A DNA stretch of 64,000 nt, from the NCBI RefSeq assembly GCF_000969445.1, contig NZ_JZEY01000061.1, forward strand, positions 186,001 to 250,000, in the 5' to 3' direction. The notes below the pieces were generated by a model that saw only the letters and a program-made list of their open reading frames with translations, was not told where the DNA came from and ran no database searches. Of the stretch, positions 2,294 to 18,284 are shown piece by piece (positions within the stretch are counted from its first letter, which is position 1; the number at the start of each line of letters is the position of its first letter). This DNA is from Devosia chinhatensis. GTDB lineage: Bacteria; Pseudomonadota; Alphaproteobacteria; Rhizobiales; Devosiaceae. The position numbers and the translations under genes are program-made.

Positions 2294-3040
2294 TCAACCG
2301 TTTTTGGTATCCAGACAGACCTGGAGGCGATCCAGCTCACGGCACTGCGTGAAAACGTCTGCCGCCTCGGCAACCTTGCCGGCTTCGATCAGGGTAATGA
2401 GCTCGACGAAAAGCGCAGTCGAGCGCGTGCGATAGGTCGGCCCTGCCATGGCGACATCTTTCGTCAGCGCCAGGGCCAGGGTCAATTCGACCACCCCGAT
2501 CACCGAGCGCAGCAGCATGTCCTGTGCGCTGTCGGCAAGGATGCCGTGCACTTCGAGACAGGCCAAGCCGAACTGCTCGATGGATTCACCGGCCGTCTCC
2601 ATCTGGTGGCACCAATATTTCAGCAGGCGCACATGCTCGGCCGTCCGGTGCCGAGCCGCCCGTTCGATCATGGGCGCTTCGAGCACGGCCCGTGCGCGAA
2701 ACAGGCTCTCCAGGAATTCGGCATCGACAGGAGCGTCAAAATGCCAGGCCAGCACCTGGGGGTCGAAGAAATTCCATCGCCCACGCGGTGACACTCTGGT
2801 TCCCACTTTTGGCCGGGCTTCGACGAGGCCCTTTGCTTCGAGAGTCTTTAACGCCTCGCGCAGCACCGTACGGGAAACGCCGTATTGCTCCATCATCACC
2901 GCATCGCTGGCGAGCACCGACCCAATTGGAAACCGGCCAGCGACGATGGACTGGCCGATCTCGTTGATGACGAAGGTGTGGAAATTCCGCGCAGCACGCC
3001 GCCCGGACAAGGACCGGATAAGGCTGCCTGTTTCGATCAT
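2294..3040 (-). CDS. GntR family (FadR/FCD type) transcriptional regulator
   Basis: 248-residue regulator. An N-terminal winged helix (roughly residues 15-85, with LASDAVMMEQYGVSRTVLREALKTLEAKGLVEARPKVGTRV split across helix-turn-helix and wing) is followed by an all-helical FCD ligand domain. The ATG at 3040 sits one base after the yjfF stop and was preferred over a longer upstream frame lying inside yjfF. Being the fifth cistron of the transporter operon, it is probably its local regulator. A plausible operator is the AT-rich imperfect palindrome at 7715-7735 ahead of ytfQ. The effector is unknown; a sugar acid or the transported furanose is a reasonable guess. Confidence 0.88.
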   Translation of the reverse strand: MIETGSLIRSLSGRRAARNFHTFVINEIGQSIVAGRFPIGSVLASDAVMMEQYGVSRTVLREALKTLEAKGLVEARPKVGTRVSPRGRWNFFDPQVLAWHFDAPVDAEFLESLFRARAVLEAPMIERAARHRTAEHVRLLKYWCHQMETAGESIEQFGLACLEVHGILADSAQDMLLRSVIGVVELTLALALTKDVAMAGPTYRTRSTALFVELITLIEAGKVAEAADVFTQCRELDRLQVCLDTKNG

Positions 3041-3041
3041 C

Positions 3042-4019: not shown

Positions 4020-5020
4020 TTGCGGGCCTCCTGCGCCACAGGGCGGAGACGAGTGGGGAACAATCTGCCCGCCAGCGGCGACTGGATGATGAGCACAAGG
4101 AAGATCAGCGCCGCCTTGACGATGAGATTGAACTCGGGAGGAAACCCCGAAACCAGGATGCCGGTATTCATGGCCTGGATAATGATCGCGCCGATCACCG
4201 CAAGGGGAACGGAAAACCGCCCGCCAAGCAGCGAGGTGCCGCCGATGACCACGGCGAGGATGGCGTCGAGCTCGAGCCAGAGCCCGGCATTATTGGCGTC
4301 GGCCCCCCGAATGTCGCCCGCCACGATGATGCCGGCCACCGCAGCGCAGAACCCGGAGAGCCCATAGACCATGATCAGCAGCATGCGGCTGCGGATGCCG
4401 GCCAGGCTCGCCGCGGCGCGATTGACGCCCACAGCCTCGATGAACAGGCCCAAAGCCGTGCGGCGCACCAGGAGCGTCACCAGGATCAGCAGCACGATGG
4501 CGATGACTGCGGCCATGGGCAGGCCAAGGAAGGAACCGGTGCCGATAAAGATCAGCAAGGGATCGTTGAAAGTGACAATGAAGCCTTGGGTGATGAGCTG
4601 GGCGATGCCGCGCCCGGCCACCATCAGCACCAGCGTGGCTACAATGGGCTGAATGTCGAGCACCGCCACAAGGAAGCCGTTCCACAAGCCGCAGAGCAGC
4701 CCGACGGCAAGGGCGGCCGCGACGGCGATCGGCGCCGGATAGCCGGCAACGACAAGAGTCGCGGCCACGGCGCCGGCCATGGCCATGACGGCGCCGACGG
4801 AAAGATCGACACCCTTTGTGGCAATGACACCCACCATGCCGATGGCGAGGATCGCCACGGGCGCGCCCCTGTTGAGCACGTCGATCAGGCTGCCGAAAAG
4901 GCGGCCATCCTGCCAGGTAATGCGAAAGAAGTTCGGAAAAAGCAGCCAGTTGATCAGCAGGATGCCGGCTAGGGCCAGGACCTGAGGATTGGCCATGCGG
5001 GCCAGAACACGCCGCGTCAT
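4016..5020 (-). CDS. ytfT: Furanose ABC transporter permease YtfT
   Basis: 334-residue permease, second membrane subunit of the YtfQRT-YjfF importer. It contains AILAIGMVGVIATKGVDLSVGAVMA and the GLWLELDAILAVVIGGTSLLGG loop shared with ribose-type permeases. About nine hydrophobic segments are visible. Two starts are possible: GTG at 5023, whose stop-start overlap is GTGA, and ATG at 5020, which shares one base with the ytfR stop. A GAGG lies 7 or 10 bases upstream respectively, so I chose the ATG. It is tightly coupled to ytfR before it and yjfF after it. Confidence 0.91.
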   Translation of the reverse strand: MTRRVLARMANPQVLALAGILLINWLLFPNFFRITWQDGRLFGSLIDVLNRGAPVAILAIGMVGVIATKGVDLSVGAVMAMAGAVAATLVVAGYPAPIAVAAALAVGLLCGLWNGFLVAVLDIQPIVATLVLMVAGRGIAQLITQGFIVTFNDPLLIFIGTGSFLGLPMAAVIAIVLLILVTLLVRRTALGLFIEAVGVNRAAASLAGIRSRMLLIMVYGLSGFCAAVAGIIVAGDIRGADANNAGLWLELDAILAVVIGGTSLLGGRFSVPLAVIGAIIIQAMNTGILVSGFPPEFNLIVKAALIFLVLIIQSPLAGRLFPTRLRPVAQEARK

Positions 5021-6534
5021 CACGCTGTGCCCTCTTTGTGGTTGGCGATCGCCTGCACGATGACGCCGGGATTGATGTCCTTGCCGGAAAGCTCGGCCAC
5101 GAGTTCCCGCTCGCGCATCACGACGATACGCGTGGAATAGGCCACGACCTCGTCGAGTTCGGACGAGATCACCACAAGCGCCAGTCCTTCGTCACGCAGG
5201 CGATTGATGGTCCTGACGATTTCGGCGTGCGCGCCCACGTCTATCCCCCGCGTCGGTTCATCGAGAATGAGAAAGGCGGGGTCGGTGGCCAACCATCGGG
5301 ACAGGATGACCTTCTGCTGGTTTCCGCCCGAGAGAAGCTTGATGGGCATGTCGAGTGAGGCAGCGCGAATATCCATCGCCTCACCGAACTTGCCGGCAAT
5401 TTCCATCTGCTCGTCGCGATTGAGGGCGCTGAACCAGCCCAGTTTGCCCTGGAGGGCGATGATGATGTTTTCGCGCACCGAAAGATCGCCAAAAATGCCC
5501 TCGGCCTTGCGATCCTCGGGGCAGAAGCCGAAGCCCCTGGCGATGGCGTCGGTAGGACTGGTGATGCTGATCGGCTTGCCAGCGAAGGTCACCTCGCCCT
5601 CATCGGCGACATCGGCTCCGAACATGATGCGGGCCATTTCCGTTCGCCCCGAGCCCAGCAGGCCCGCCACGCCGATCACTTCGCCCTTGTGGATGGTGAG
5701 GTTGAACGGCTGCACGCCGCGCTTGCGACCATAATTTTTGAAATCCAGCAGGACCTCGCCCAACGGCCGGGCGTCCTGCACGCCGGTGGCGCCGGAAAAT
5801 GCCACATCCTTGCCCAGCATCAGCCTGACCACATCCGTACGGGTGACATTGTCCAGCGCGCGGGTCTCGATCAGCCTGCCATTGCGCAGGATGGTGACCC
5901 GGTCGGCCAACGCGAAGACCTGGTCCAGGAAATGGGTAATGAAGACGATGGCCAGACCTTTCGCCCGAAGGCCGCGGATGATCTCGAAGAGGCGCTCGAC
6001 TTCCTTGCGATCGAGGCTGGCCGTGGGTTCATCGAGGATCAGCACCTTGCCTGAAAGCTCCACGGCCCTCGCTATCGCGACGATCTGCTGCACTGCGACG
6101 GAATAGGCGCCCAGCTCGCTGGCTGGGTCGATATCGAGCCCATAGCGCTCGAGAATGACACGGGACTCCCGCTGCATCCGACGCCGATCGACCAGACCGA
6201 ACCGCGTCGGCTGATGACCCAGAAAGAGGTTTTCCGCCACCGACCTGTTGGGCAGCAGGTTGACCTCCTGATAGACCGTCCCGATGCCGTATTTCTGGGC
6301 GTCCTGAGGATTGTCGAATGTCACCGGGATGCCATCGACCAGAACCTGGCCGGTCGTCGGCTGGTAGGCGCCGGTCAGGATCTTGATCAGCGTCGACTTG
6401 CCTGCGCCATTCTCACCAAGAAGAGCATGGACCTCGCCGGCTCGCAGGCCGAAATCGACGGAGTCGAGCGCGACATGATTGCCGAAGACCTTGATGATCC
6501 CGCGGGCTTCGAGTGCATAATCGTCGTCAGGCAT
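5020..6534 (-). CDS. ytfR: Furanose ABC transporter ATPase YtfR (two nucleotide-binding domains)
   Basis: 504-residue tandem ATPase of the sugar CUT2 type, which drives import. The first domain has Walker A GENGAGKST and Walker B LILDEPTASLD. The second has the degenerate Walker A GLLGSGRTE usual for this class, the signature LSGGNQQKV and Walker B LILDEPTRGIDVG. The start is the ATG at 6534, preceded by GGGAGGGG at good spacing; a frame running up to 6627 lacks a ribosome site. It lies 152 bases after ytfQ, with a hairpin between, so the ATPase may be made at a lower level than the binding protein. Confidence 0.93.
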   Translation of the reverse strand: MPDDDYALEARGIIKVFGNHVALDSVDFGLRAGEVHALLGENGAGKSTLIKILTGAYQPTTGQVLVDGIPVTFDNPQDAQKYGIGTVYQEVNLLPNRSVAENLFLGHQPTRFGLVDRRRMQRESRVILERYGLDIDPASELGAYSVAVQQIVAIARAVELSGKVLILDEPTASLDRKEVERLFEIIRGLRAKGLAIVFITHFLDQVFALADRVTILRNGRLIETRALDNVTRTDVVRLMLGKDVAFSGATGVQDARPLGEVLLDFKNYGRKRGVQPFNLTIHKGEVIGVAGLLGSGRTEMARIMFGADVADEGEVTFAGKPISITSPTDAIARGFGFCPEDRKAEGIFGDLSVRENIIIALQGKLGWFSALNRDEQMEIAGKFGEAMDIRAASLDMPIKLLSGGNQQKVILSRWLATDPAFLILDEPTRGIDVGAHAEIVRTINRLRDEGLALVVISSELDEVVAYSTRIVVMRERELVAELSGKDINPGVIVQAIANHKEGTA

Positions 6535-6622
6535 GTGCCCCTCCCTGCCTGTGAGCAGTCTGCACCAGTCTTTAGGCGTCGTCATTGCCTGGTTTTCACG
6601 GCAATCCAACTTGCGAAGGTGG

Positions 6623-6645
6623 ACCACCCGGACAGGCCGGGTGGT
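6623..6645 (-). repeat. Intercistronic hairpin between ytfQ and ytfR
   Basis: Nine-base perfect stem (ACCACCCGG / CCGGGTGGT) with a five-base loop, no T run. Such hairpins after a binding-protein gene often protect the upstream message from 3' decay; that role here is inference. Confidence 0.6.
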
Positions 6646-6686
6646 GACGTTGTTGCGGATCCGGCGTTCAGCCGGACGGGGCGGTC

Positions 6687-7658
6687 TTAGTACCCCAGGT
6701 CCTTGCGGCGCTCGTATTCACCGGCCGGATCGTCGGCAGAGGTATAGAGCTTGGACTCGGTGATGATGAACTTTTCCGGCTCGGTGCCATCGGCCCAGTA
6801 GGCGGCCAGGACATCGAATGCCGGACCGGCCATGTTGGGGGTCAGTTCGACCGTGGCATTGGCTTCGCCAGCGGCAATGGCGGTGAAGATATCGGGCACG
6901 GCGTCGATCGAGACCACGAGGATATCCGTACCGGGCTTGAGGCCGGCATCCTTGATTGCCTGGATGGCGCCAACGGCCATGTCGTCATTATGGGCATAGA
7001 CCGCGCAGATATCTGCGCCACCATTCTCCGCCTTGATGAAGCCTTCCATCACTTCCTTGCCCTTGGAGCGGGTGAAATCGCCGGTCTGGCTGCGGGCAAT
7101 GGTAATATTACTGGCGCCGGCAATGGCCTCCTCGAAGCCCTGCTTGCGGTTGATCGCCGGGGTCGAACCCACGGTGCCCTGCAATTCGACCACCTTGCAG
7201 TCGGCGCCGGCAACATTGTCCACCAGCCACTGGCCGGCCACGCGACCCTCTTCCACCTGGTCCGAAGCGACGGAGGCGAGGTAAAGTTCTTCCGGCGCAT
7301 CGACACCGCGGTCGAGCAGCACGACGGGAATTTCAGCTTCCTTGGCCTCTGTCAGCACGTCATCCCAGCCCGTGGCCACCACCGGAGCCACGAGGATGGC
7401 ATCGACGCCCTGAGCAATGAAGCCGCGGATCGCCTTGATCTGGTTTTCCTGCTTTTGCTGCGCGTCGGCGAATTTGAGATCGACGCCGCGCTCCTCTGCC
7501 TGCTGGCGGGTCACGGACGTTTCAGCGGCACGCCAGCCCGATTCGGAACCGATCTGCGAAAAGCCGACAACCTTGCCGGAAATGTCCTGCGCCAAGGCAA
7601 CAGAAGACAAGGCGGTAGCGAGGCTCGCCGCGATGGCGAGCTTGGTAATGATGCTCAC
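6687..7658 (-). CDS. ytfQ: Furanose-binding periplasmic protein YtfQ
   Basis: 323-residue periplasmic binding protein very like E. coli YtfQ (galactofuranose binding). Shared stretches are VGFSQIGSESGWRAAET, QQKQENQIKAIRGFIAQGVDAI, APVVATGW, SQTGDFTRSKGKEVMEGF and VYAHNDDMAVGAIQAIKDAG. An N-terminal signal peptide ends around ALA-QD. The start is the GTG at 7658: GGAGG lies seven bases upstream. A TTG at 7671-7673 is in frame but falls inside that ribosome site. This is the first gene of the operon, with a promoter and a possible GntR operator just upstream. Confidence 0.93.
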   Translation of the reverse strand: MSIITKLAIAASLATALSSVALAQDISGKVVGFSQIGSESGWRAAETSVTRQQAEERGVDLKFADAQQKQENQIKAIRGFIAQGVDAILVAPVVATGWDDVLTEAKEAEIPVVLLDRGVDAPEELYLASVASDQVEEGRVAGQWLVDNVAGADCKVVELQGTVGSTPAINRKQGFEEAIAGASNITIARSQTGDFTRSKGKEVMEGFIKAENGGADICAVYAHNDDMAVGAIQAIKDAGLKPGTDILVVSIDAVPDIFTAIAAGEANATVELTPNMAGPAFDVLAAYWADGTEPEKFIITESKLYTSADDPAGEYERRKDLGY

Positions 7659-7714
7659 GATGAATCCTCCCAAAAGCCGCCCGGCGTTTGCGCTTCAGGC
7701 GGTAAAGGGACGCT

Positions 7715-7735
7715 ACATAAAGTACTATTATATGT
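7715..7735 (-). promoter_or_regulatory. Promoter -10 and candidate operator for the ytfQ operon
   Basis: Imperfect 21-base palindrome with outer arms ACATA and TATGT (16 of 20 paired positions match). Inside it, on the minus strand at 7727-7732, is a perfect TATAAT. No good -35 box lies at standard distance, which fits a regulated promoter. It lies 57 bases upstream of the ytfQ start. Binding by the operon's GntR protein is inferred only from position and symmetry. Confidence 0.55.
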
Positions 7736-7755
7736 AAAGTAGGATTGTTTAGGCG

Positions 7756-7791
7756 TAAAATGGGGCATTCCGAAGGTCCTCGAAATGCCCC
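7756..7791 (-). terminator. Terminator after the nucleoside hydrolase gene
   Basis: Eight-base perfect outer stem (GGGGCATT / AATGCCCC) that continues inward imperfectly, followed on the minus strand by ATTTT. It lies 28 bases past the nucleoside hydrolase stop and separates that gene from the ytfQ promoter. Confidence 0.7.
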
Positions 7792-7818
7792 TAGCGTCTG
7801 TAAGAGCGAAGGTTTTGC

Positions 7819-8772
7819 TCAGCCGCGAGTCACAGCAGAATGGTAGTGCTCCAGCACTTTCGCCCCATCCACGCCGACACAGATCGTGTGATGCGGACGG
7901 CCCTCCCAGGCTGAATGCACGCCTCCGCGCTCGGCGGGCCAGAGCGCTGTCTGCCCTACGGCCAGACCCTCCCGCACCACCGCGATGGCGCCACGACGGA
8001 CCTCGAACCATTCTGGGTGGAGCGCGTAGGTCACCGCCAGAAGATCATGACCGACCACGCCGGAGAGACCCATAACGTTCATATAGAACTTGGCGTAGTG
8101 ACCACACATCTGGCGCAGCAGTTCGGCATTTTCGCCGGCCTCGTCCGCCAGGCGCGCGAGATAATCACTGTCGAGGATGATATCGTGCGTGACGTCGAGC
8201 CCCACCACGGTCACCGGCCACTCGGCCATGAAAATCTCATCGGCGCCCACTGGGTCGCCATGAATATTGGCTTCTGCCAGCGGGGTGATGTTGCCGCTGC
8301 GCCCCTGATAGCCGAAGGCGCCACCCATGATGATGACCTGCTTGGTCAGCGTCGCCACGTCCGGTGCCTGGCGAAGGGCAAGAGCCAGATTGGTCATGCG
8401 ACCCACTGCGATGATCGTGACCTCGCCTGGATGCGCCCTGACCGTATCGATGATGAACTGGCTGGCCGTGCCGGCATGCAGACCAGCTTCGTCGACTGGA
8501 GGAATATCGATGTCGCCTAGGCCGTTGTGACCATGGACGGCAGCGGGTTCCTCCTTGACCACCTCATCGAGGGTAAATTCCGCACCCCTGACCACCGGCG
8601 CCACAAGGCCGAATTTCTGTCGCAGGAACAGGGCATTGCGCGTAGTGTCCGCAATGCTCGCATTGCCCACGACGGTGGTGATGCCGAGAAGCTCGATTTC
8701 AGGGAGCTTGCTCAGGTAGAGCAAAGCCATGGCATCATCGATGCCGGGGTCGGTATCAAAAATAACTTTCAT
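7819..8772 (-). CDS. Inosine-uridine preferring nucleoside hydrolase family protein
   Basis: 317-residue enzyme that cleaves the N-glycosidic bond of ribonucleosides to free base and ribose. The N-terminal calcium-binding signature DTDPGIDDA is intact at residues 6-14. VVGNASIADTTRNA, the TNLALAL segment and the C-terminal GHDLLAV stretch (active-site side) are also present. It has no signal peptide and is cytosolic. It is divergent from the fgd gene and upstream of, but separated by a terminator from, the furanose transporter. Exact nucleoside specificity cannot be read from the sequence. Ribofuranose released here is chemically related to the transporter's likely substrates. Confidence 0.9.
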   Translation of the reverse strand: MKVIFDTDPGIDDAMALLYLSKLPEIELLGITTVVGNASIADTTRNALFLRQKFGLVAPVVRGAEFTLDEVVKEEPAAVHGHNGLGDIDIPPVDEAGLHAGTASQFIIDTVRAHPGEVTIIAVGRMTNLALALRQAPDVATLTKQVIIMGGAFGYQGRSGNITPLAEANIHGDPVGADEIFMAEWPVTVVGLDVTHDIILDSDYLARLADEAGENAELLRQMCGHYAKFYMNVMGLSGVVGHDLLAVTYALHPEWFEVRRGAIAVVREGLAVGQTALWPAERGGVHSAWEGRPHHTICVGVDGAKVLEHYHSAVTRG

Positions 8773-8853
8773 TCACATCGCCGTCTTTGGTCGGGAATAG
8801 GCTTTATCCCGGTCTCGTCTTATTGTCTGTTTGCTCTTCTAGCATCAAGCCGC

Positions 8854-8889
8854 TTGACTATCGACGTTTTTTGACCAAACGATCAAAAA
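8854..8889 (+). promoter_or_regulatory. fgd promoter region with inverted-repeat operator
   Basis: A TTGACT at 8854-8859 could be a -35 box, with a weak -10 about 18 bases on (AACGAT). Covering that -10 is the inverted repeat TTTGACCAAACGATCAAA at 8870-8887, extended by TT/AA on both sides. The same 18-base pattern, TTTGAYC-N4-GRTCAAA, recurs before the second F420-type oxidoreductase gene at 13922-13939, which argues for a shared regulator. Confidence 0.65.
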
Positions 8890-8917
8890 TAGATCGTCGG
8901 CATTCGGGAGGGAAACC

Positions 8918-9919
8918 ATGCGCTTCGGATACAAGGCATCGGCGGAGCAGTTTGCCCCCAACGACCTCCTGCGGTTCGCCGTCGAGGCCGAAGAGGCCGG
9001 CTTCGACTCGGTCTTCGTGTCCGACCATTTCCAGCCTTGGAAACATACTGACGGCCACGCGCCTTTCGCCCCGGGCTGGATGTCTGCGGTCCTCGCCCGT
9101 ACCGAAAAGATCATTCTTGGCACCTCGGTTCTCACCCCTACCTTCCGCCTTCATCCTACGGTGGTCGCCCATGCCTTCGGCACCATGGGCGCGATGTTTC
9201 CCGGTCGTGTCATCCTCGGCGTCGGCACGGGCGAAGGTCTCAATGAAGTCCCGGCCACCGGTATGGATTGGCCTGAGCTCAAGGAGAGATCGGCGCGCCT
9301 TCGCGAAGCGGTTAAACTCATTCGCCAGCTCTGGACAGAGGACCGCGTTTCCTTCGAGGGGCAATATTACAAGACGGTCAACGCCACCATCTACGACAAG
9401 CCCGTCGAGCCCGTGCCGATCTACATTGCCGCCGGTGGTCCCCTGAACGCAAAATATGCCGGCCGCGCCGGTGACGGCTTCATCTGCACGTCCGGCAAGG
9501 GCGCAGAGCTTTATGTGGATCAGCTCCTGCCCAATGTCGAAACCGGCCGGGCCGAAAGCGACCTCAGGGACAAGCCCTTCGAGCGCATGATCGAGGTCAA
9601 GGTATCCTTTGACACCGACCCGGAGCGAGCGCTGAACGACACGCGCAATTGGGCGGCGCTTTCCCTTTCTGCAGAAGAAAAGCACTCTGTTCAGGATGCC
9701 GAGGAAATGGAACGCCTGGCCGACGCCTTGCCGATTGAGCGCGTGGCCAAACGCTGGATCGTGTCCTCCGATCCCGATGAGCACGTTGCGGCAATCAAGA
9801 CCTATATCGACTACGGCTTCGACCATCTGGTCTTCCATGCACCAGGGACGGACCAGAGCCGGTTCTTGGGCCTCTATGCCCAGGAAATTCTGCCCCGGCT
9901 TCGGAAGCTGGTGGGATAG
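8918..9919 (+). CDS. fgd: F420-dependent glucose-6-phosphate dehydrogenase
   Basis: 333-residue LLM-fold enzyme that oxidises glucose-6-phosphate to 6-phosphogluconolactone while reducing F420. It resembles Mycobacterium tuberculosis Fgd1 along its whole length: [11 protein letters not shown] at the N-terminus, SDHFQPW (Asp36, His37, Trp41), [20 protein letters not shown] (Glu106), [18 protein letters not shown] (Thr191, Lys194), LSAEEKHS and [12 protein letters not shown]. These match the known cofactor, catalytic (His40, Glu109) and phosphate-binding (Lys198, Lys259, Arg283) residues of Fgd1. ATG start with GGGAGGGAAACC upstream. First gene of the F420 cassette. True Fgd is best known in Actinobacteria, so its presence in an alphaproteobacterium suggests transfer. 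Confidence 0.92.
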
Positions 9920-9954
9920 ATGACGACGCCCCGAATTTGCCAATACCGCGACCC

Positions 9955-9978
9955 ATTCCCCCCTTGGCAGGGGGGGGA
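9955..9978. repeat. Extragenic palindrome between fgd and cofE
   Basis: Stem of C and G runs (TCCCCCC / GGGGGGG) around a TTGGCA loop, followed by GATAGCTGGGGGTG. It resembles the short extragenic palindromes scattered in rhizobial-type genomes. It ends at the cofE start and supplies the purine-rich bases in front of it. Confidence 0.55.
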
Positions 9979-9987
9979 TAGCTGGGG

Positions 9988-10815
9988 GTGCAGGCCGTGA
10001 CCCCTCGCATCTCCGTATGGGGCATTACGGGGCTTCCAGAAATCGCTCCCCGTGATGACCTTGTTGCCATAATTGCTGGCGCGGTTACTACCCAGGCCGC
10101 CACCGACCCCGATCTGGCCCTGCAATCGGGCGACATCCTCGTCGTTACCTCGAAAATCGTCTCCAAATCCGAAGGCATGCAGGTGCCGGCCGCCGAGCGC
10201 GAGCAGGCAATAGCCGCTGATACTGTCCGCGTCGTAGCCGAGCGCGTCCATCCTGGTGGCAACTTCAAGATCGTGGAAACCCGCCAGGGCCTCGTCATGG
10301 CGGCCGCCGGCATCGATATGTCGAATGTTCCCGAAGGCGTGGCCCTGCGCCTTCCAGCCGACCCCGATGCCTCGGCCCGAGCCCTGTGCGCCGGCCTTCG
10401 GCAAAGGCTTGGCATGAATATCGGCGTCATCATTACCGATACGATCGGTCGCGCCTGGCGCGTGGGGCAGACGGACATGGCGATTGGCGCGGCCGGGTTG
10501 CAATTGACCGACGACCTGCGCGGCGCCAATGACGCCAATGGCCGCCCCCTGCACGTAACCCAGGCCGTGATTGCCGACGAGATTGCCGGGGCCGCTGATC
10601 TGGTCAAGGGCAAGACCACCGGCATTCCGGTGGCGGTCGTACGCGGCATGGGGCGCTTTGTTCGCGACCTGGACGCGCCCGGCGCCCGCAGCCTCACCCG
10701 CACCGGCGATGATGACATGTTCCGTTTCGGCAGTGCCGAAGCCTACCGCCTCGGCTATGAGGCGGCGATGGCCGAGATCAAGGCCAAGAGCGTCAAACAG
10801 GATGAGATGCCATGA
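9988..10815 (+). CDS. cofE: F420-0:gamma-glutamyl ligase
   Basis: 275-residue enzyme that adds L-glutamate to F420-0 using GTP, making the polyglutamate tail that retains F420 in the cell. Family marks are [14 protein letters not shown] near the start, [15 protein letters not shown], the [21 protein letters not shown] stretch split over two strands, and [10 protein letters not shown]. Only the CofE domain is present; the nitroreductase-like C-terminal domain of mycobacterial FbiB is absent. The start is GTG at 9988 or GTG at 9997; the second gives a more usual N-terminus. The stop overlaps the ATG of the next gene (ATGA), so ligase and transporter are translationally coupled. Confidence 0.92.
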
Positions 10816-11753
10816 GATACGCGGCTTTTATTCCCCTTGTGCTGGCTTTGACAGCCTCGCCCACCCATGCGGCTACACCCTATCCGCTGGTTTTGGACAA
10901 TTGCGGGACAGTTGTCGAATTCGACGGTCCACCGCAACGGGTCGTCACCCTCAAGTCTACGGCAACCGAATTGCTTCTAGCCCTCGGGCTCGCCAATCGC
11001 ATCGTCGGCATCGGCTTTCAGGACGGCCCCCTCCCCGAGAGTTTGGCCTCTGCCGGTGAAGGCCTGAAAATTCTATCCGACAAGCTTCCGAGCCAGGAAG
11101 TGGTTCTCGAAAGCGAACCGGACTTCATCTATGGCGGTTGGGAAAGCAATTTTGCCGCCGACGGAGCAGGCGAACGCCCGATCCTGGCCGAACTGGGCGT
11201 CGACACATACGTCGCGCCGGCCGCCTGTCGCTCCATTGCCCCCCCGAAGCTCACATTTGACGGCCTCTTTGCGCAGATCGCAGAGATGGGCGCCATCTTC
11301 GACATCGAGGACACGGCCAACGCGCTGATCGCCGAACAGCAGGCGCTGCTCGACGGTGTGACACGAGACCCGCGAGGGCTCACCGCTCTCTGGTATTCTT
11401 CGGGCACCAAGACGCCTTACGTCGGGGCGGGCACGAATGCGCCCGATATGATCATGTCGGCGCTGGGACTGGAAAACATCTATGGCGCGGTGGGCGAGGG
11501 GTGGACTTCGGCCAGCTGGGAGGCAATCGTCGATGAAAATCCCGACGTGATCGTGTTGGTCGACGCCGCTTGGAACCCGGCAGAACAAAAGAAGACTCTG
11601 CTCGCTGAAAACCCGATCACCAACAAGCTCGATGCCGTCGTCAACGAGCGCTACCTCATCATACCCTTCCCGGCATCGGAAGCAGGCATTCGCAATGTCC
11701 CGGCAGTGCTCGACATGGCCGCGCAACTGGCCAAGCTGTCCTTTGAGCGCTGA
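10812..11753 (+). CDS. ABC transporter binding protein, likely F420-0 binding
   Basis: 313-residue periplasmic protein of the BtuF/FecB class with a signal peptide ending near THA-ATP. It has the family's [38 protein letters not shown] opening (read in parts), the [10 protein letters not shown] hinge region and a C-terminal [10 protein letters not shown] strand. By fold alone it could bind siderophore or cobalamin. Context decides: it is coupled to cofE, next to fgd, and followed by its own permease and ATPase. That is the arrangement for which NCBI/TIGRFAM models of a proposed F420-0 importer were built from Actinobacteria (recalled as TIGR03868, TIGR03869, TIGR03873). The substrate remains inference. 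Confidence 0.8.
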
Positions 11754-11828
11754 GCCTCGAGTTAAACTAGTTAAATGTCCCATTGGCCCGGATCGTGTCT
11801 TATGGCCGCCGATTCGGAAGGATGGGGC

Positions 11829-12050
11829 ATGGGTTTGCAATTCGAGGTGGTCGATCTTCGGACCGACCTTATCTGCGCGTCTGAAATGGTCGAGGGCGCA
11901 GCATCTCCAGAGGAGGCAGCCCGCAGGGTCCTGGGTATCGATGTGTTTCGCAGCGGCAAGCGTCAGGATCTGGTCGCTCGCGTCTATTGGCAAAGGCGGG
12001 GCGAACCAAAAAACATGGTTCGACTCTATTCAAGACCGTATTTTCAATAG
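11829..12050 (+). CDS. Small conserved-looking protein inside the F420 cassette
   Basis: 73 residues starting MGLQFEVVDLRTDLICASEM and ending in ARVYWQRRGEPKNMVRLY plus eight more. The ATG at 11829 has AGGA ten bases upstream in AAGGATGGGGC. An alternative ATG at 11775 would add 18 residues of poor character. It has no signal peptide, membrane segment or cysteine pair. From memory it resembles short uncharacterised alphaproteobacterial proteins with an EVVDLRTG-like start and an RVYWQ-like end. It sits between the binding protein and permease genes. I cannot assign a function. Confidence 0.55.
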   Translation: MGLQFEVVDLRTDLICASEMVEGAASPEEAARRVLGIDVFRSGKRQDLVARVYWQRRGEPKNMVRLYSRPYFQ

Positions 12051-12107
12051 GGGCCGGAACGGGCAGATAATCGCGCCGAGACGCATGCCAATCGGCACCG
12101 CTCAATC

Positions 12108-13109
12108 GTGAAGCATCTCGTCCTGCCCGGGCTTGGTGTCCTGCTGCTGCTCAGCGCCGTCGCTGCGGTGACGATGGGCCCGGCAAGCCTTACCCCGCAG
12201 GAAGTGGGCATGGTTATCCTGCATCATCTGGGCTTGCTTGCTGAGAGCCCGGTGTCGCGGCTGCGCGATGCCATCGTCTGGGAACTGCGCCTTCCTCGGG
12301 TGCTGACGGCAATGGCCGTGGGCGCAGGACTTGGACTATCGGGCACGGTGATGCAGGCATTGACCCGCAATCCCCTGGCCGACCCCTACCTCCTCGGTCT
12401 GTCATCGGGAGCCGCTCTCGGCGCCGTGCTGTTCCTGCTGGCGGGCTTTACACTCTTCATGCCGTTTGGCGCCTTTCTGGGCAGCTTGGTGGCATTGGGC
12501 CTGGCGCTTCTGGTTGCAGGCCTACTTGGCGGCGCAACTCCGTCCCGGGCTATCTTGGCCGGCATCTGCATTTCGGCGCTCGCTTCTGCGGCGACCTCAT
12601 TTCTGATCTTCTGGTCGGCGACGGGCGACAGCTACCGCGAAATTCTCTCCTGGCTGCTGGGATCGCTATCCGGGTCGCTTTGGGGAGACGCAGCACTGGT
12701 TGGTGCAGCGCTCCTGGTTTGCGCGCCGATCATCCTTGTGTGCGGCAGGGCGCTTGACGCCTTCGCTTTCGGTGACAGGGCCGCGGCAGCTCTGGGCATT
12801 GACGTGCCTCGGCTGCGCTGGACGCTGCTGGGCATCACCGCTTTGCTGACCGGACTTATGGTCGCGATCGGCGGGGCAATCGGCTTCGTCGGACTGGTCG
12901 TTCCGCACGCCGTGCGGCTGGCGATCGGGTCACAGCACCGGCGCCTGCTACCGCATGTCATGTTGGTCGGAGCAATATTCATGCTGTGGGCCGATACAGC
13001 CGCCCGCACCCTGTTCGACCCACGCGAATTGCCGGTCGGCATCATCACGGCTCTTGTGGGGGCTCCGGTTTTCCTCCTGGTTCTGCTGCGCTACCGGAGG
13101 GTAACATGA
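12108..13109 (+). CDS. FecCD-type ABC permease, likely F420-0 importer
   Basis: 333-residue inner-membrane permease of the iron-siderophore/B12 (FecCD, BtuC) family with about ten hydrophobic helices. Family marks are LRLPRVLTAMAVGAGLGLSGTVMQALTRNPLADPYLLGLSSGAALGAV (read in pieces), the ILSWLLGSLSG segment and the coupling helix with IGFVGLVVPHAVRLAIG. The start is GTG at 12108; there is no strong ribosome site, so the exact start is uncertain. The stop overlaps the ATPase start (ATGA). It works with the binding protein at 10812 and the ATPase at 13106. Confidence 0.86.
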   Translation: MKHLVLPGLGVLLLLSAVAAVTMGPASLTPQEVGMVILHHLGLLAESPVSRLRDAIVWELRLPRVLTAMAVGAGLGLSGTVMQALTRNPLADPYLLGLSSGAALGAVLFLLAGFTLFMPFGAFLGSLVALGLALLVAGLLGGATPSRAILAGICISALASAATSFLIFWSATGDSYREILSWLLGSLSGSLWGDAALVGAALLVCAPIILVCGRALDAFAFGDRAAAALGIDVPRLRWTLLGITALLTGLMVAIGGAIGFVGLVVPHAVRLAIGSQHRRLLPHVMLVGAIFMLWADTAARTLFDPRELPVGIITALVGAPVFLLVLLRYRRVT

Positions 13110-13897
13110 GCGTGGAAGTGGAAGGGCTCGAGATAACCCGCAGCGGGAGGGCCATCCTTTCAAGAGCCACCTTTTCAGCTCCATCGGCAGCGATCACCGG
13201 GCTGATCGGGCCTAACGGCGCGGGCAAGTCCACCTTGCTGGGTGCTCTGCTTGGGTTGCTTCCTGCCAGTGGGTCGGTTCGGTTCGATGGGCAGGACCTG
13301 CTCGCGATGCCCAGGCGCGACCGGGCCCGCCTCGCGGCCCTGGTCGAGCAATCCTCCTTCACAGAAGAGCGCCTCAGCGTACGGGACGTGGTGGGATTGG
13401 GGCGCATCCCCCATCAATCGGCCCTCTCTCTGCTGGAGGATGGCGAGGGCGCCGCGATCATCGATGACGCCCTCGCCCAAACTGACCTCTTGTCATTCTC
13501 GTCAAGGCGGTTCGACATGCTTTCCGGAGGCGAACAGCAGCGCGTTCATCTGGCACGGGCCCTTGCGCAGCAGCCGCGCCTGCTGATGCTCGATGAACCA
13601 ACTAGCCACCTCGACATCAGTGCCCAGCTCCAGCTTTTCGCCCTGCTGCAACGGAAGGCGCGAAGCGGGATGACGGTGATTATTGCACTCCATGATCTCA
13701 ACCTGGCATTGCGCTTCTGCGACCATCTTGTCCTTGTGTCCGGTGGCACAATCGCGGCCTCCGGATCTTCCCAAGAGATCCTGACGCCGCATTGGCTGGA
13801 ATCGGCGTATAATGTCCGCGCCCGGACGGTCGCAGACCCGATCACCGGCCGGCCGATCCTCGTCTATGACGAGGCTGCGGCTGCGAAACCGGATTGA
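13106..13897 (+). CDS. ABC transporter ATPase, likely F420-0 importer
   Basis: 263-residue ATPase of the FecE/BtuD class. Walker A is GPNGAGKST, the Q-loop lies in VEQSS, the signature is LSGGEQQRVHLARAL, Walker B is LLMLDEPTSHLD, and the switch histidine is in ALHDLNLAL. The ATG at 13106 overlaps the permease stop and follows CGGAGGGTAAC, a good ribosome site. A longer upstream frame inside the permease gene was rejected. It is the last gene of the importer unit. The -35 box of the next gene lies across its stop codon. Confidence 0.88.
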   Translation: MSVEVEGLEITRSGRAILSRATFSAPSAAITGLIGPNGAGKSTLLGALLGLLPASGSVRFDGQDLLAMPRRDRARLAALVEQSSFTEERLSVRDVVGLGRIPHQSALSLLEDGEGAAIIDDALAQTDLLSFSSRRFDMLSGGEQQRVHLARALAQQPRLLMLDEPTSHLDISAQLQLFALLQRKARSGMTVIIALHDLNLALRFCDHLVLVSGGTIAASGSSQEILTPHWLESAYNVRARTVADPITGRPILVYDEAAAAKPD

Positions 13898-13942
13898 CAA
13901 TCTTCACCACGCCCCTAAAAATTTGATCAGCTGGTCAAATTT
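13894..13942 (+). promoter_or_regulatory. Promoter and operator of the second F420-type oxidoreductase
   Basis: TTGACA at 13894-13899, a 17-base spacer and AAAAAT at 13917-13922 form a good promoter. The -10 box runs into the inverted repeat TTTGATCAGCTGGTCAAA at 13922-13939, extended to a 24-base palindrome by AAA/TTT. It has the same 18-base pattern as the repeat before fgd and the same placement, consistent with repression by one regulator of both promoters. Confidence 0.7.
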
Positions 13943-13970
13943 ATTGGCCGTCAAGGGAGCGCGGGAACAC

Positions 13971-14972
13971 ATGGAATTCGGTATCACCTTCAAGGGTTTC
14001 ATCGAGCACGAACGGGCGCGCTATCTGGTGCGGGCCGCCGAATTTGCCGGCTTCTCCTATTGCTGGTTCTATGACAGCCATATTCTCTGGCGCGACTGCT
14101 ATTCCGCCATTGCCATGTGCATGGAACACACCACCGACATGCGGTTCGGACCGCTCGTGACCAATCCCGACGTGCGCGACTGGTCCGTCGCGGCCTCCAT
14201 TTTCGGCTCGCTGTCCAAGCAATCGGGCGGGCGCTTTGATCTTGCCGTCGGTCGTGGCGACAGTTCGATGCGCGTCATGGGCAAGAAGCCAGCGACGTTG
14301 AAGCGCGTCGCCGAATTTATCGACAAGACCAAAGCCATGGTGCGCGGCGAAGAAGTGACCTATGGCGAAATTCCTGCCGCCGTGCAGTTCCCCTGGGCCG
14401 TGGGCCATGACATGCCCAGCTGGATTGCCGCCTATGGGCCGCTTGCTCTCAAGACGGCGGGCGAAAGTGCGGACGGCGTTGTTCTCCAGATCGCCGATCC
14501 GGGTCTATGCAAATGGTTCACCGACCAATGTATTGAAGCCGGCACGGCCGCTGGCAGGGACATGTCCGCTTATCGCTCAATGGCTGCAGCGCCCGCCTAT
14601 TTCGGTGACAAGAAACGCGCCATCGAAAAGGTGAAATGGTTTCCCGCCATGGTCGGCAACCACGTTGCCGATATCGTCGAGAAGTATGGCTCTGACAGTG
14701 ATAAGGTTCCCGCAAGCCTGACGTCCTATATCGAGAAGCGCCGCGGCTACGATTATTCCAAACACGGCCAGGCCGATAACCCCTATCTCGACTTCATCAC
14801 CGACGATGTCGTGGAGAGCTTTTGCGTCCTGGGAGAGCCGGAAGACCACATCACCAAGGTGCGCCAGCTCAAAGCTGCGGGCGTTACCCAGTTCAACATC
14901 TATCTCGACAGTGGTGACGAAGAAGAAATCATCGCCAATTACGGGCGCCACGTCATCCCGGCCTTCCGCTGA
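13971..14972 (+). CDS. LLM-class F420-dependent oxidoreductase (CPS_4043-like family)
   Basis: 333-residue TIM-barrel oxidoreductase of the bacterial luciferase-like superfamily. Its N-terminus MEFGITFKGFIEHERARYLV, the FYDSHILWRDCYSAIAMCMEHT stretch (read in parts), GPLVTNPDVRDWSVAAS, GGRFDLAVGRGDSSMRVMG and the C-terminal GVTQFNIYLDSGDEEEII match a family modelled as a putative F420-dependent oxidoreductase (recalled as TIGR03842). The substrate is unknown. Cofactor could be F420 or FMN, since the family also occurs in organisms not known for F420. The ATG at 13971 was chosen because family similarity begins there. The shared operator ties it to the fgd promoter. Confidence 0.85.
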   Translation: MEFGITFKGFIEHERARYLVRAAEFAGFSYCWFYDSHILWRDCYSAIAMCMEHTTDMRFGPLVTNPDVRDWSVAASIFGSLSKQSGGRFDLAVGRGDSSMRVMGKKPATLKRVAEFIDKTKAMVRGEEVTYGEIPAAVQFPWAVGHDMPSWIAAYGPLALKTAGESADGVVLQIADPGLCKWFTDQCIEAGTAAGRDMSAYRSMAAAPAYFGDKKRAIEKVKWFPAMVGNHVADIVEKYGSDSDKVPASLTSYIEKRRGYDYSKHGQADNPYLDFITDDVVESFCVLGEPEDHITKVRQLKAAGVTQFNIYLDSGDEEEIIANYGRHVIPAFR

Positions 14973-15157
14973 CTGCGGTCGGAAGAGGCCCGGGTCGTCG
15001 CGGCATCAACTGAGCCACTTTGTGATCAGTGCTAAACCGTATCTTGTACAAAAATTAGCCTTTGGTTTACTTTCGTTACCCAAGGTTAAAACGTGCAAAT
15101 CAGCAGGCAGAACGCCGTTGTTGCAGCAGTTTAATGCAGTAACCGGATCCTCGTCAC

Positions 15158-16087
15158 ATGCACGGCAGGACTTTATCGGCGGCATCGGCCCAACGGCTGG
15201 GAAAGGGCCTTGCATTGGCCCTCGCCTTTGCATGCCTCCTTTCCGGCTGCGCCTCGACGCGTGATTTGCCGACGCGTGAGGCCAGCATCATCAACCCGGC
15301 CGCCGCCGTGATCATTCCCCCACCGGGCGGACCAGGCATTGCCAAGGTCGTGTCGACCACCTTCCCCAATGCCATCCGGCAGGACATCTCGCTCGTGACC
15401 CAGGCCCGCACGGCCGGGGAGAACAAGATTTCGGTCATCCTGTTCCAGGACCGCGGCGGCGACGGCAGCGACGCGCGCCTGCGCGATATCCCCTTCACCA
15501 ATGTGAACCTGACCCAGGAAGCGCTGACCGCCTGGCCCGATACCGGGATGGCCGTTTCGCCCTACTACGTCCAGAATGCCTATGGTCCCTTCGGTTACGC
15601 CATCGGCAAGCCGGCCAATGGTGATACCTGCATTTATGCCTGGCAGCGGATCGAGCCGACCTTACGCCCCTCCGGCGCCACCGAGCGCGGCACTATCGTT
15701 ATCCGTTTGCAATTGTGCCGCCAGAATTCCAGCGAGCGGCAATTGCTCGAAATCATGTACCAGCTACGCCTCGACGTCAGTGTCTTCCCGCCCGGCCGGG
15801 GCGCCGCACGGGTCGGGGCGCTGACCGCGCCGATCGTGCCGGTGGGCGTGCTTGGTTTCGAGGAAGTCATTCCCAGCGCCAGGCCAGTCGTCCGCAATCA
15901 GACCCCGGCTCGCCCAGCGCCGCAGGTGAGTACACCCGCGCCTGCGCCCGTCATCGCGGCACCACCGCCGGGCGCGCCGATCGTCCCGTCACCCACTGCA
16001 TCGGGCTCAGCAGGCAGCGGAACTCAGGTTCCCGCCCCGTCGTCCGGCTCCGTCATCGTCCCTTCGCCCCCGGGTGGATCAAACTAG
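15158..16087 (+). CDS. bcsN: Cellulose biosynthesis lipoprotein BcsN
   Basis: 309-residue protein of the BcsN family found with Rhizobiales cellulose synthase operons. An N-terminal signal ends in a lipobox (LLSGC, cysteine near residue 31), so it is a predicted lipoprotein. A beta-rich domain follows, and the last ~85 residues are Pro/Ala/Ser rich, as in a flexible periplasmic linker. Its role is not established; the family is diagnostic of type III bcs loci. It overlaps bcsA by 14 bases. The 185 bases before it hold the operon promoter region; an imperfect repeat TTGGTTTAC-TTTC-GTTACCCAA is visible there. Confidence 0.87.
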   Translation: MHGRTLSAASAQRLGKGLALALAFACLLSGCASTRDLPTREASIINPAAAVIIPPPGGPGIAKVVSTTFPNAIRQDISLVTQARTAGENKISVILFQDRGGDGSDARLRDIPFTNVNLTQEALTAWPDTGMAVSPYYVQNAYGPFGYAIGKPANGDTCIYAWQRIEPTLRPSGATERGTIVIRLQLCRQNSSERQLLEIMYQLRLDVSVFPPGRGAARVGALTAPIVPVGVLGFEEVIPSARPVVRNQTPARPAPQVSTPAPAPVIAAPPPGAPIVPSPTASGSAGSGTQVPAPSSGSVIVPSPPGGSN

Positions 16088-18284
16088 GCTGCTCGCGCCG
16101 CGGAAGTTCAAGTTGACCAAAGCATTTTCCATTCTGATCTGGCTCCTGGTGTCGGCAACGACCTTTGTGCTGCTGACCATCCCGGTCAGCCTGCAGGTGC
16201 ACCTGGTGATGGCGGCGCTGCTGATCCTGCTCATGGCGGTGATCAAGCTACTGCGCCTCGAAGGCAATTGGCGCCTGCTGCTGCTCGCGCTGGGCACCAT
16301 TATCGTGCTGCGCTATGCCTATTGGCGCACCACGAGCACCCTGCCCCCGGTCACCCAGCTGGCTGACTTCATTCCCGGTCTGATCCTCTACCTCGCCGAG
16401 ATGTACTGCATCCTGATGTTGTTCCTCAGCCTCTTCGTCGTGATCAAACCCATTCCTCCGCGCCCCTCCATGAGACTCGCTCCGGATGAAGCGGTCCCCC
16501 ATGTTGACGTCTTCATCCCGACCTATAACGAGGATTACGCTTTGCTGGCCGGCACATTAGCCGCCGCAAAGGCCATGGATTATCCCGCCGATCGCTTCAC
16601 CGTTTGGCTGCTCGATGATGGGGGCACCGAGGCCAAGCGCAACGATCCGGATCCGGACAACGCAGCCGAGGCCCTCGATCGCTATAACCAGCTGCGGCAA
16701 TTGTGCGACGAACTAGGCTGTCGGTACCTCACTCGCGCTGAGAACAAGCACGCCAAAGCGGGCAATCTCAACAACGGACTTGCCCATTCAAGCGGCGAAT
16801 TCATCGCCGTCTTCGACGCCGACCACGCTCCGGCCCGCGACTTTCTTCAGGAAACCGTCCCCTATTTCGGCCGCGACGCACGGCTGTTCCTGGTGCAGAC
16901 GCCGCACTTCTTCCTCAATCCAGATCCGCTGGAACGCAATCTGCGCACATTCGAGGTGATGCCCTCGGAAAACGAGATGTTCTATGGCGTTATCCAGCGT
17001 GGCCTCGACCGCTGGAACGCCGCATTCTTCTGCGGGTCGGCAGCGCTGTTACGCCGCGAGGCGCTCGAGGTCACCCAGGGCTTTGCTGGCCGGTCCATCA
17101 CCGAGGACTGCGAGACCGCCATCGAACTGCATAGCCGCGGCTGGAACTCGATCTATGTCGATAAACCGCTGGTGGCCGGATTGCAGCCGGCGACCTTTGC
17201 CAGCTTTATCGGCCAGCGGACCCGCTGGGCCCAGGGCATGATGCAGATCATGCTGTTCAGCTTCCCTCTGTTCAAGCCTGGGCTCAAACTGGTGCAGCGG
17301 CTGAGTTACATGTCCAGCACCATGTTCTGGCTGTTTCCGCTGCCGCGGATGATCTTCCTCTTCGCCCCCTTCTGCTACCTCTTCCTTGACCTGCAGATCT
17401 TCACCGCTTCGGGTGGCGAGTTCGCCGCCTATACGCTCACCTATGTGCTCGTGAACCTGGTGTTGCAGAATTCGTTGTTCGGGCGCTGGCGTTGGCCGTG
17501 GATCTCGGAGCTCTACGAATATATCCAGTCCGTGCACCTCTTGGGCGCGTTGCTCTCGGTGCTGCGCAATCCCAGCAAGCCGACCTTCAAGGTGACGGCC
17601 AAGGATGAAAGCGTTGACAAGTCACGCCTGTCCGAACTGGCCCGGCCATTCTACCTGATCTTTCTCCTTTTGCTGCTCGCCGTGGCCATGACGATCTACA
17701 AGATCGGGGCCGAGCCGTACCGGGCTGAAGTGACCATGGTGGTCGGGGGCTGGAACATCTTCAACCTGATCCTGGCCGGTTGCGCCCTGGGTGTTGTGTC
17801 CGAACGGCGCGAAATCCGCGCCAGCCGCCGTGTGAATATCGAGCGGCGCTGCGAGGTGCGCGGAGCGGACGGCGCTTGGGTCCGTGGCACGATCACCAAT
17901 GTGTCGAGCGGGGGACTGGGCGTTCGGCTGGCCGCCGGCTCGGCCGGGTTGGCGCGCGGTGCACCCACCACGCTGCGCTTCAATCCCCTTTCCGATACGG
18001 GTGCCAACGAACTGGCCATCTTCATCCGCTCGGTTTCCCCCGAAACCAAAGGTGCGGTCCTGGGCTGCCGCTATATGCCCGAGCGCGGACAGGATTACCG
18101 CCTCATCGCGGATCTGCTCTACGCCAACTCGGCGACATGGCAACAGCGCCAGCGCAGTCGCCAGATCAATATCGGCATTATCCGCGGCACAGTGCGTTTC
18201 CTGGCTATAGCCTCCTACCAGACGGCCCGCGGGCTGAGCTACCTACTGCGCTTTGGTCGCGGAAAGGCTGTCGAACATGAATAA
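16074..18284 (+). CDS. bcsA: Cellulose synthase catalytic subunit (UDP-forming), PilZ domain
   Basis: 736-residue processive glycosyltransferase that polymerises UDP-glucose into beta-1,4-glucan and extrudes it across the inner membrane. Several N-terminal membrane helices are followed by a GT2 domain with DDGG, FDADHAP (DxD), TED in SITEDCE and QRTRW (QxxRW), all intact. More helices and a C-terminal PilZ domain follow: RRVNIERRCEV (RxxxR-type) and NVSSGG (D/NxSxxG). PilZ indicates activation by cyclic di-GMP. The GTG at 16074 overlaps bcsN; a TTG at 16113 preceded by GGAAG fits the start of Agrobacterium CelA better, so the start is uncertain. Confidence 0.95.
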   Translation: MDQTRLLAPRKFKLTKAFSILIWLLVSATTFVLLTIPVSLQVHLVMAALLILLMAVIKLLRLEGNWRLLLLALGTIIVLRYAYWRTTSTLPPVTQLADFIPGLILYLAEMYCILMLFLSLFVVIKPIPPRPSMRLAPDEAVPHVDVFIPTYNEDYALLAGTLAAAKAMDYPADRFTVWLLDDGGTEAKRNDPDPDNAAEALDRYNQLRQLCDELGCRYLTRAENKHAKAGNLNNGLAHSSGEFIAVFDADHAPARDFLQETVPYFGRDARLFLVQTPHFFLNPDPLERNLRTFEVMPSENEMFYGVIQRGLDRWNAAFFCGSAALLRREALEVTQGFAGRSITEDCETAIELHSRGWNSIYVDKPLVAGLQPATFASFIGQRTRWAQGMMQIMLFSFPLFKPGLKLVQRLSYMSSTMFWLFPLPRMIFLFAPFCYLFLDLQIFTASGGEFAAYTLTYVLVNLVLQNSLFGRWRWPWISELYEYIQSVHLLGALLSVLRNPSKPTFKVTAKDESVDKSRLSELARPFYLIFLLLLLAVAMTIYKIGAEPYRAEVTMVVGGWNIFNLILAGCALGVVSERREIRASRRVNIERRCEVRGADGAWVRGTITNVSSGGLGVRLAAGSAGLARGAPTTLRFNPLSDTGANELAIFIRSVSPETKGAVLGCRYMPERGQDYRLIADLLYANSATWQQRQRSRQINIGIIRGTVRFLAIASYQTARGLSYLLRFGRGKAVEHE

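Follow-up and report, generated by a model that had tools for sequence, protein, structure and literature searches.

A putative F420-0 salvage regulon with a predicted deazaflavin importer in Devosia chinhatensis

Most discussion of F420 treats it as a cofactor made by the organisms that use it. For Actinobacteria without F420 synthesis, however, an ATP-binding cassette (ABC) importer of the tail-less form, F420-0, has reportedly been proposed by the authors of the corresponding protein models. Here we describe a related set of genes in Devosia chinhatensis, found in a stretch of 64,000 nucleotides that we refer to as the window (bases 186001 to 250000 of a 1.31-Mb contig; the genome, G000 in our numbering, comprises 3.50 Mb in 98 contigs and is 99.94% complete). 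Six genes located between positions 8918 and 14972 of the window, all on the plus strand, encode an F420-dependent glucose-6-phosphate dehydrogenase (Fgd), the F420-0:gamma-glutamyl ligase CofE, a substrate-binding protein (SBP), a FecCD-type permease, an ATPase and an oxidoreductase of the luciferase-like monooxygenase (LLM) class. With a probability of roughly three in four, this cassette serves an F420 auxotroph as a regulon for F420-0 salvage, a reading in which the substrate, the transport direction, trapping, passage of the outer membrane and repression are all predicted from sequence.

Four described or predicted systems are close enough to be compared with this locus. The predicted F420-0 importer, whose components are defined in NCBIfam as hypothetical equivalogs, shares with it the three-gene transporter cassette, the adjoining cofE and LLM genes and a genome without CofD and CofH. 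It differs in that the window cassette belongs to a Gram-negative family and in that the window SBP has, as judged by eye, a Sec-type signal peptide, whereas the three actinobacterial SBPs examined appear to be lipoproteins. In addition, the Devosia genes lie on one strand and are led by fgd, while cofE is on the opposite strand in all 29 actinobacterial loci that have it within the fetched flank, and the operator described below was not found in the actinobacterial loci (0.92 Mb). Fgd1 of Mycobacterium and Rhodococcus is alike in sequence (473 bits over 330 residues between the window Fgd and the solved protein 5lxe) and is encoded in genomes that make the cofactor; the window fgd instead heads a row of genes with a cofactor importer. 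The BtuFCD system has the same fold and the same gene types for its binding protein, permease and ATPase, but the window set has no cobalamin riboswitch, forms a separate SBP branch and is linked to cofE and fgd. Lastly, the Fo-salvage-like loci of Cellulomonas and its relatives contain the same transporter family and, as in Devosia, occur without CofH, but these loci keep CofC and CofD and could start from Fo, whereas the Devosiaceae would start one step later. The features of the window locus are as follows.

8870..8887, no strand: putative palindromic operator ahead of fgd, TTTGACCAAACGATCAAA, by eye over the -10 region (-35 TTGACT at 8854-8859)
8918..9919, plus strand: fgd, F420-dependent glucose-6-phosphate dehydrogenase, 333 amino acids (TIGR03554, 505.5 bits; cut-off, 420)
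9988..10815, plus strand: cofE, F420-0:gamma-glutamyl ligase, 275 amino acids, GTG start (TIGR01916, 218.6 bits; cut-off, 180.65)
10812..11753, plus strand: SBP of the predicted F420-0 ABC importer, 313 amino acids (TIGR03868, 396.8 bits; cut-off, 392.4)
11775..12050, plus strand: small open reading frame between the SBP and permease genes, 91 amino acids, coding status unsure
12108..13109, plus strand: FecCD-type permease, 333 amino acids, GTG start (TIGR03869, 430.0 bits; cut-off, 437.35)
13106..13897, plus strand: ABC ATPase, 263 amino acids (TIGR03873, 301.9 bits; cut-off, 372.4)
13922..13939, no strand: second putative operator copy TTTGATCAGCTGGTCAAA, ahead of the LLM gene and by eye next to a -10-like TAAAAA (TTGACA at 13894-13899)
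13971..14972, plus strand: LLM-class oxidoreductase of the TIGR03842 family, 333 amino acids, ATG at 13971 (484.8 bits, scored from 13974; cut-off, 295.45)

An earlier note on this DNA had described six contiguous genes, with cofE being translationally coupled to the SBP gene. The order and the strand are as it described, and the coupling is seen as an ATGA common to the cofE stop and the SBP start (10812-10815); an overlap of the same kind joins the permease and ATPase genes (13106-13109). Strict contiguity does not hold, as 354 bases with the small open reading frame separate the SBP and permease genes. This frame had no family match, and among the loci searched its only relative was the window's own locus. 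Likewise, the LLM gene is a member of the row but not a plain part of the first operon, since it is preceded by its own promoter-like stretch and operator. A hairpin in the fgd-cofE intergenic region folded no better than shuffled sequences (z, 0.26). The window Fgd retains the SDHFQPW and GVGTGE stretches of Fgd1, which hold catalytic residues. CofE aligns over residues 7 to 222 with the solved CofE proteins 7uld, 2phn and 2g9i (E, about 1e-29), and the product of the LLM gene matches the solved Mer protein 8qq8 (E, 1.4e-30) and is presumed to be a Mer-like user of F420.

Salvage is supported by the distribution of genes within the Devosiaceae. Genomes were searched by curated models only (TIGR01819 for CofD, TIGR03551 for CofH/FbiC and TIGR01916 for CofE), and three archaeal F420 makers included as controls scored over the cut-off with both the CofD and the CofH models. 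CofD was found in 0 of 136 genomes of the family, the window genome included, and CofH/FbiC did not reach its cut-off in any of them; seven weak CofH/FbiC matches of 19 to 28 bits were seen, none of them in the window genome. The earlier note had called for a search of the complete genome for biosynthesis genes, and this search gave no match for CofD or CofH/FbiC, with CofC and CofG lying outside its range. Complete F420 biosynthesis elsewhere in the genome is rejected for CofD and CofH by profile search. In contrast, CofE was over its cut-off in 69 of the 136 genomes. An SBP of the main clade (at least 329 bits) was also present in 69 genomes, in 66 of which it exceeded the TIGR03868 cut-off, and these carriers are exactly the 69 genomes with CofE (Fisher, 1.7e-40; n = 136), although such values overstate the association because the genomes are not phylogenetically independent. 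Six further genomes of the family have a second-clade SBP alone (242 to 262 bits) and no CofE. In the order as a whole, the SBP was found in 13 of 377 sampled genomes, 12 of which belong to the window's family. It is the absence of CofD together with the presence of CofE, and not the name of the transporter family, that points to F420-0 as the substrate in Devosia. As a side observation, a relative with a 2.0-Mb genome (G081) has a stop-broken cofE remnant (L053:6816-7037) and no SBP match, suggesting an apparent loss of salvage.

Scoring of the three transporter proteins against the F420-0 importer models, another check put forward in the earlier note, gave a divided result. The SBP passes the TIGR03868 cut-off, and its next-best model reaches 122 bits. 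The permease is 7 bits under the TIGR03869 cut-off and the ATPase 70 bits under that of TIGR03873; these models are still their best matches, the next being BtuC for the permease (228.4) and a haem-type ATPase for the ATPase (237.4), and all three proteins are far above the cobalamin and siderophore models. In three Devosia- or Pelagibacterium-type relatives, the permease scored 436.8, 439.5 and 483.2 and the ATPase 304 to 331, and one of the two actinobacterial ATPases tested was also under the TIGR03873 cut-off (L086, 367.8). The link to the TIGR03868/TIGR03869/TIGR03873 importer is drawn from the SBP, synteny and co-occurrence and not from the ATPase model, and we are more confident that the window transporter works like the predicted F420-0 importer than that it formally belongs to all three models. 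The profile of the SBP family matches the solved chain 4mlz_A at 392 bits, an entry that is named merely "Periplasmic binding protein".

Gene order around the transporter is also conserved. A scan of an 84,980-genome collection gave 360 pattern matches and 318 relatives, and the best 80 of these 318 were examined: 31 loci from Devosia, Pelagibacterium and other alphaproteobacteria and 49 actinobacterial loci in 48 genomes. Among the 31 non-actinobacterial loci, 21 have the order [fgd slot]-cofE-SBP-permease-ATPase-LLM, six have LLM-fgd-cofE-SBP-permease-ATPase, and three more show the latter order up to a contig edge. In the remaining locus (L071), which is a second copy in its genome, SBP, permease and ATPase genes are accompanied by a different cofE nearby. 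The gene in the fgd slot matches the window Fgd at >600 bits in 19 of the 21 loci; in L101 (a Pelagibacterium) and L113 it scores <200 bits and is probably another LLM enzyme. In L057, whose genome shares a genus group with an identical-SBP relative of L101, the slot gene belongs to the TIGR03557 family of LLM proteins. Order is thus kept in 30 of the 31 loci, including the two whose fgd slot holds another LLM gene, and because it is conserved across these homology-fetched loci, we do not consider the cassette a product of chance. Two further F420-type modules were seen among the relatives. In a metagenome-assembled Hyphomicrobiales genome (G092), L052 (the same locus as L071) contains a second, divergent module of CofE, a Mer-like LLM gene and importer, which adjoins CaiB-type CoA-transferase, enoyl-CoA hydratase and thiolase-like genes and suggests a use of F420 in catabolism. 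In G073, a second cofE-SBP-permease-ATPase set (L051) lies by a peptide/nickel-type ABC transporter, and its cofE is unlike that of the main cassette.

A tree against actinobacterial homologues, likewise proposed in the earlier note, was built for the SBP. In this quick tree, 34 of the 36 non-actinobacterial rows group together in a clade (SH-aLRT, 95), and the L052/L071 second copy accounts for the two rows outside it. Tree analysis also sets the window SBP apart from the two B12-type SBPs of its own genome (bootstrap, 100; SH-aLRT, 96). The quick tree omits L176, L184 and L185, which duplicate L110, L072 and L073, as well as L130, which lies elsewhere on the L124 record; of the 79 carriers from the Cellulomonas order discussed below, 30 fetched loci were used. 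The simplest history would be one old transfer into the Devosiaceae, given the wide spread of the family in Actinobacteria and its near-confinement to one family of the sampled order; its direction is inferred, and the deep order of the clades is not settled. A recent plasmid origin was considered and rejected, as all 1,284 of 1,284 records matched in a plasmid search were at <60% identity.

The two promoters of the window cassette have a palindrome in common, TTTGAYC-N4-GRTCAAA, with two sites in the window where 0.02 would be expected from shuffled sequences and no others in the 396 kb of the genome examined (about 11%, window included). Using the core TTGAYC-N4-GRTCAA and counting matches to the window Fgd or LLM protein of at least 600 bits with >200 bases of upstream DNA, we found that, once duplicates were removed, 33 of 34 Devosia-type loci have the site ahead of the LLM gene and 26 of 35 have it ahead of fgd. 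Eight of the 10 exceptions are fgd genes that are preceded by the LLM gene, and the other two have a site with one mismatch. The 60 distinct sites in all fetched loci comprise 33 ahead of the LLM gene, 26 ahead of fgd and 1 ahead of another gene, and the sequences flanking the sites diverge in the nine loci compared. As the two window sites cover or abut the -10 region, a repressor would suit this arrangement, and the palindrome is probably a conserved operator of the fgd and LLM promoters that is, as far as our searches show, new. The odd site, at L077:3359 in Devosia sediminis, is located before a gene for an LLM-FAD-oxidase fusion (L077:3359-5762; 759 amino acids, with an LLM domain, FAD_binding_4 and a berberine-bridge BBE domain), which is possibly a further user of F420.

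In light of these data, it is likely that extracellular F420-0, a deazaflavin that has a phospholactate arm but lacks the glutamate tail, passes the outer membrane, is bound by the SBP in the periplasm and is moved inward by the permease and the ATPase. The cassette encodes no outer-membrane receptor; F420-0, at about 515 Da, is small enough for porins. CofE would then add glutamates, making the molecule more anionic and keeping it inside, Fgd would charge F420 with hydride from glucose-6-phosphate, and the TIGR03842-family enzyme would spend F420H2 on a substrate of its own. A repressor binding TTGAYC-N4-GRTCAA at both promoters would silence the set while it is not required. To the extent that sequence can show this, import of the tail-less cofactor and its trapping by glutamylation, as suggested in the earlier note, are supported.

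Several observations weigh against this proposal. The permease and the ATPase are both below their curated cut-offs, and a non-homologous route to F420-0 could exist in genomes that were searched by curated models only. Biochemical data on any member of this transporter family were not found among the top-ranked open-access titles. Free F420-0 in soil is undocumented in the literature consulted, the deazaflavin reported from supernatants being Fo in the excerpts of PMC11917521. Furthermore, in a sample of 297 actinobacterial genomes, 39 transporter carriers have CofD but no CofH, and one of 79 showed no CofE.

This last sample bears on what the transporter family carries. Two actinobacterial sets were used, the 48 genomes with examined loci and 297 genomes of the Cellulomonas order (Actinomycetales), at least nine genomes being in both; genomes with no TIGR03551 match at E 1e-20 were taken to lack FO synthase, and one genome with a 38-bit cofD fragment (G138) was counted as cofD-less. 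Among the 48 carriers, CofD was over the cut-off in 26, including the one with CofH over the cut-off and the one with a partial CofH. Within the 297 genomes, the transporter was found in 79, CofH in 55 (30 over the cut-off) and CofD in 113. CofH occurred in 3 of 79 carriers versus 52 of 218 noncarriers and, when only CofD-bearing genomes are considered, in 3 of 42 carriers versus 50 of 71 others. The 79 carriers comprise 39 with CofD and no CofH, 37 with neither and 3 with both, so that 76 of 79 lack FO synthase; CofE was present in 78 of them, in 76 over the cut-off. The cofD start is within 6 kb of the SBP gene in 23 of the 42 CofD-bearing carriers and far off or on another contig in 15. CofC was over its cut-off in all seven frames tested, all of which came from cofD-bearing loci, and a CofC motif scan found it in cofD-bearing loci alone, although it missed many of these too.

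The cofD-bearing carriers could hence convert Fo to F420 but apparently lack the means to make Fo. Read plainly, this suggests import of Fo in cofD-bearing Actinobacteria and of F420-0 where CofE alone remains, and with 39 CofD-bearing, CofH-less carriers the name of the family is not enough to identify F420-0 as the substrate. Counting against Fo import are 21 of the 297 genomes that have CofD but neither CofH nor the transporter, with no apparent source of Fo. Five SBP positions part the cofD-linked from the cofD-less members (98, 228, 140, 143 and 235 in window numbering): position 140 is R in 36 of 36 Devosiaceae rows versus K in 14 of 14 cofD-linked ones, and position 228 is D or E in 33 of 36 Devosiaceae rows (G in the window) versus H in 13 of 14. 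These differences are leads, which phylogeny alone could cause. A single origin of the cofD-linked SBPs was also considered; the quick tree gives five changes, yet an approximately unbiased (AU) test did not reject one clade (p, 0.066), and repeated substrate switching is therefore not established. In the broadest form, which we judge to be evenly balanced between true and false, TIGR03868 would comprise deazaflavin importers for two grades of auxotroph, one living on Fo (with CofC, CofD and CofE, as in many Cellulomonas-like Actinobacteria) and one on F420-0 (with CofE alone, as in other Actinobacteria and in all sampled Devosiaceae carriers), the substrate having switched along the SBP tree, the Devosiaceae having a regulon with its own operator and the tail-less cofactor being a shared good of soils.

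The Actinobacteria also raise the question of whether the transporter imports Fo, or deazaflavins generally, in Devosia too, in which case Fo or a mixture would be used as it is and CofE would act just on the fraction that arrives as F420-0. Such an explanation would fit the frequency of carriers with cofD and without CofH (24 of the 48; 39 of the 79 in the overlapping set), the closeness of cofD to the SBP gene and the CofC frames described above, and Fo is typical of producer supernatants in the excerpts of PMC11917521. However, CofD was found in 0 of 136 family genomes, so that Fo, once imported, could not be converted to F420-0, and CofE, which is present in every family carrier and whose gene overlaps that of the window SBP, would lack a substrate; most Devosiaceae SBPs, moreover, differ from the cofD-linked ones at positions 140 and 228, a difference that phylogeny alone could explain. 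We therefore regard Fo import in Devosia as unlikely. It is very unlikely, in our view, that the cassette imports tailed F420, or 3PG-F420-0 or dehydro-F420-0, with CofE re-extending or remodelling the tail. In known systems, tailed forms can be substrates of CofE, and the class of substrate is not readable from sequence, but long-tailed F420 would have a mass beyond the general porin limit and the cassette includes no outer-membrane receptor, a point that leaves the untailed variants unaffected.

Finally, it is highly improbable that the cassette is a usual BtuFCD/FhuD-type importer, for cobalamin, haem or a siderophore, lying beside cofE and fgd by chance, despite the common fold family (Pfam Peripla_BP_2 and FecCD) and the two subthreshold transporter scores, since the SBP passes TIGR03868 well clear of its next model and occurs with cofE in 69 of 69 family carriers. 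The BtuFCD models were not reached (BtuC, 228 versus a cut-off of 461 and 223 versus 334; BtuD, 146 versus 281). The two B12-type loci of the window genome (L066 and L067), whose SBPs have their own tree branch, each have a cobalamin riboswitch, as do both second-clade SBP loci scanned out of five fetched (L054 and L056), whereas an Rfam scan of window positions 7600 to 15300 gave no match and hence no cobalamin riboswitch, and 16 actinobacterial cassettes likewise gave none. In eight Devosiaceae-type cassettes scanned, the single riboswitch was on the opposite strand of L138, by a separate B12-type cassette. Because a third FecCD-type locus of the window genome (L070) is also without a riboswitch, this absence alone does not exclude a siderophore or haem substrate; cobalamin import by the window cassette is disfavoured by the models, the SBP tree and the riboswitch distribution. 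In L138 (2070-5269; Devosia sp. CJK-A8-3), the riboswitch-led B12-type ABC set and the F420 cassette are back to back.

The idea of an F420-0 importer predates this work; what appears to be new, as far as our searches show, is its extension to a proteobacterial family, the operator common to both promoters and the division between Fo and F420-0. The earlier note knew of no experimental proof of F420 uptake, and we found none either, as no title on F420 or F420-0 uptake was among the open-access matches listed (for longer lists, among the top 20 to 40 titles). Excerpts of a 2021 review (PMC8498797) do not mention salvage, uptake or Devosia and name one transporter, a putative exporter of Paraburkholderia rhizoxinica, and those of PMC8571402 contain nothing on F420 uptake. 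As for deazaflavins outside cells, the supernatants of producing organisms typically contain Fo (PMC11917521), which has also been reported in a Mycetohabitans supernatant (PMC11104420), in both cases according to excerpts. If F420-0 salvage in the Devosiaceae and deazaflavin import in the Actinobacteria are as proposed, about half of the sampled species of the family (69 of 136) and a quarter of those of the Cellulomonas order (79 of 297) would live on deazaflavins made by others, F420 precursors would be traded in soil much like B12, and estimates of F420 use that are based on biosynthesis genes would miss such organisms. Uptake is directly testable, as the family has a solved member (4mlz) and named Devosia strains carry the cassette, and the transporter could help to load F420 into production strains.

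On the minus strand at 2294-8772, and divergent from fgd, are genes for a GntR/FCD regulator, a galactofuranose-type YtfQ transporter and a nucleoside hydrolase, the last being retained as a neighbour in several Devosia loci. Following the cassette, at 15158-20514, are a BcsN gene, a gene that by eye is cellulose-synthase-like and a BcsB gene; the BcsN and cellulose-synthase-like genes are retained as cassette neighbours in L093. Further along the window, at 25295-28732 on the minus strand, lies a gene for a large CheB-CheR-PAS-HWE-kinase fusion protein.

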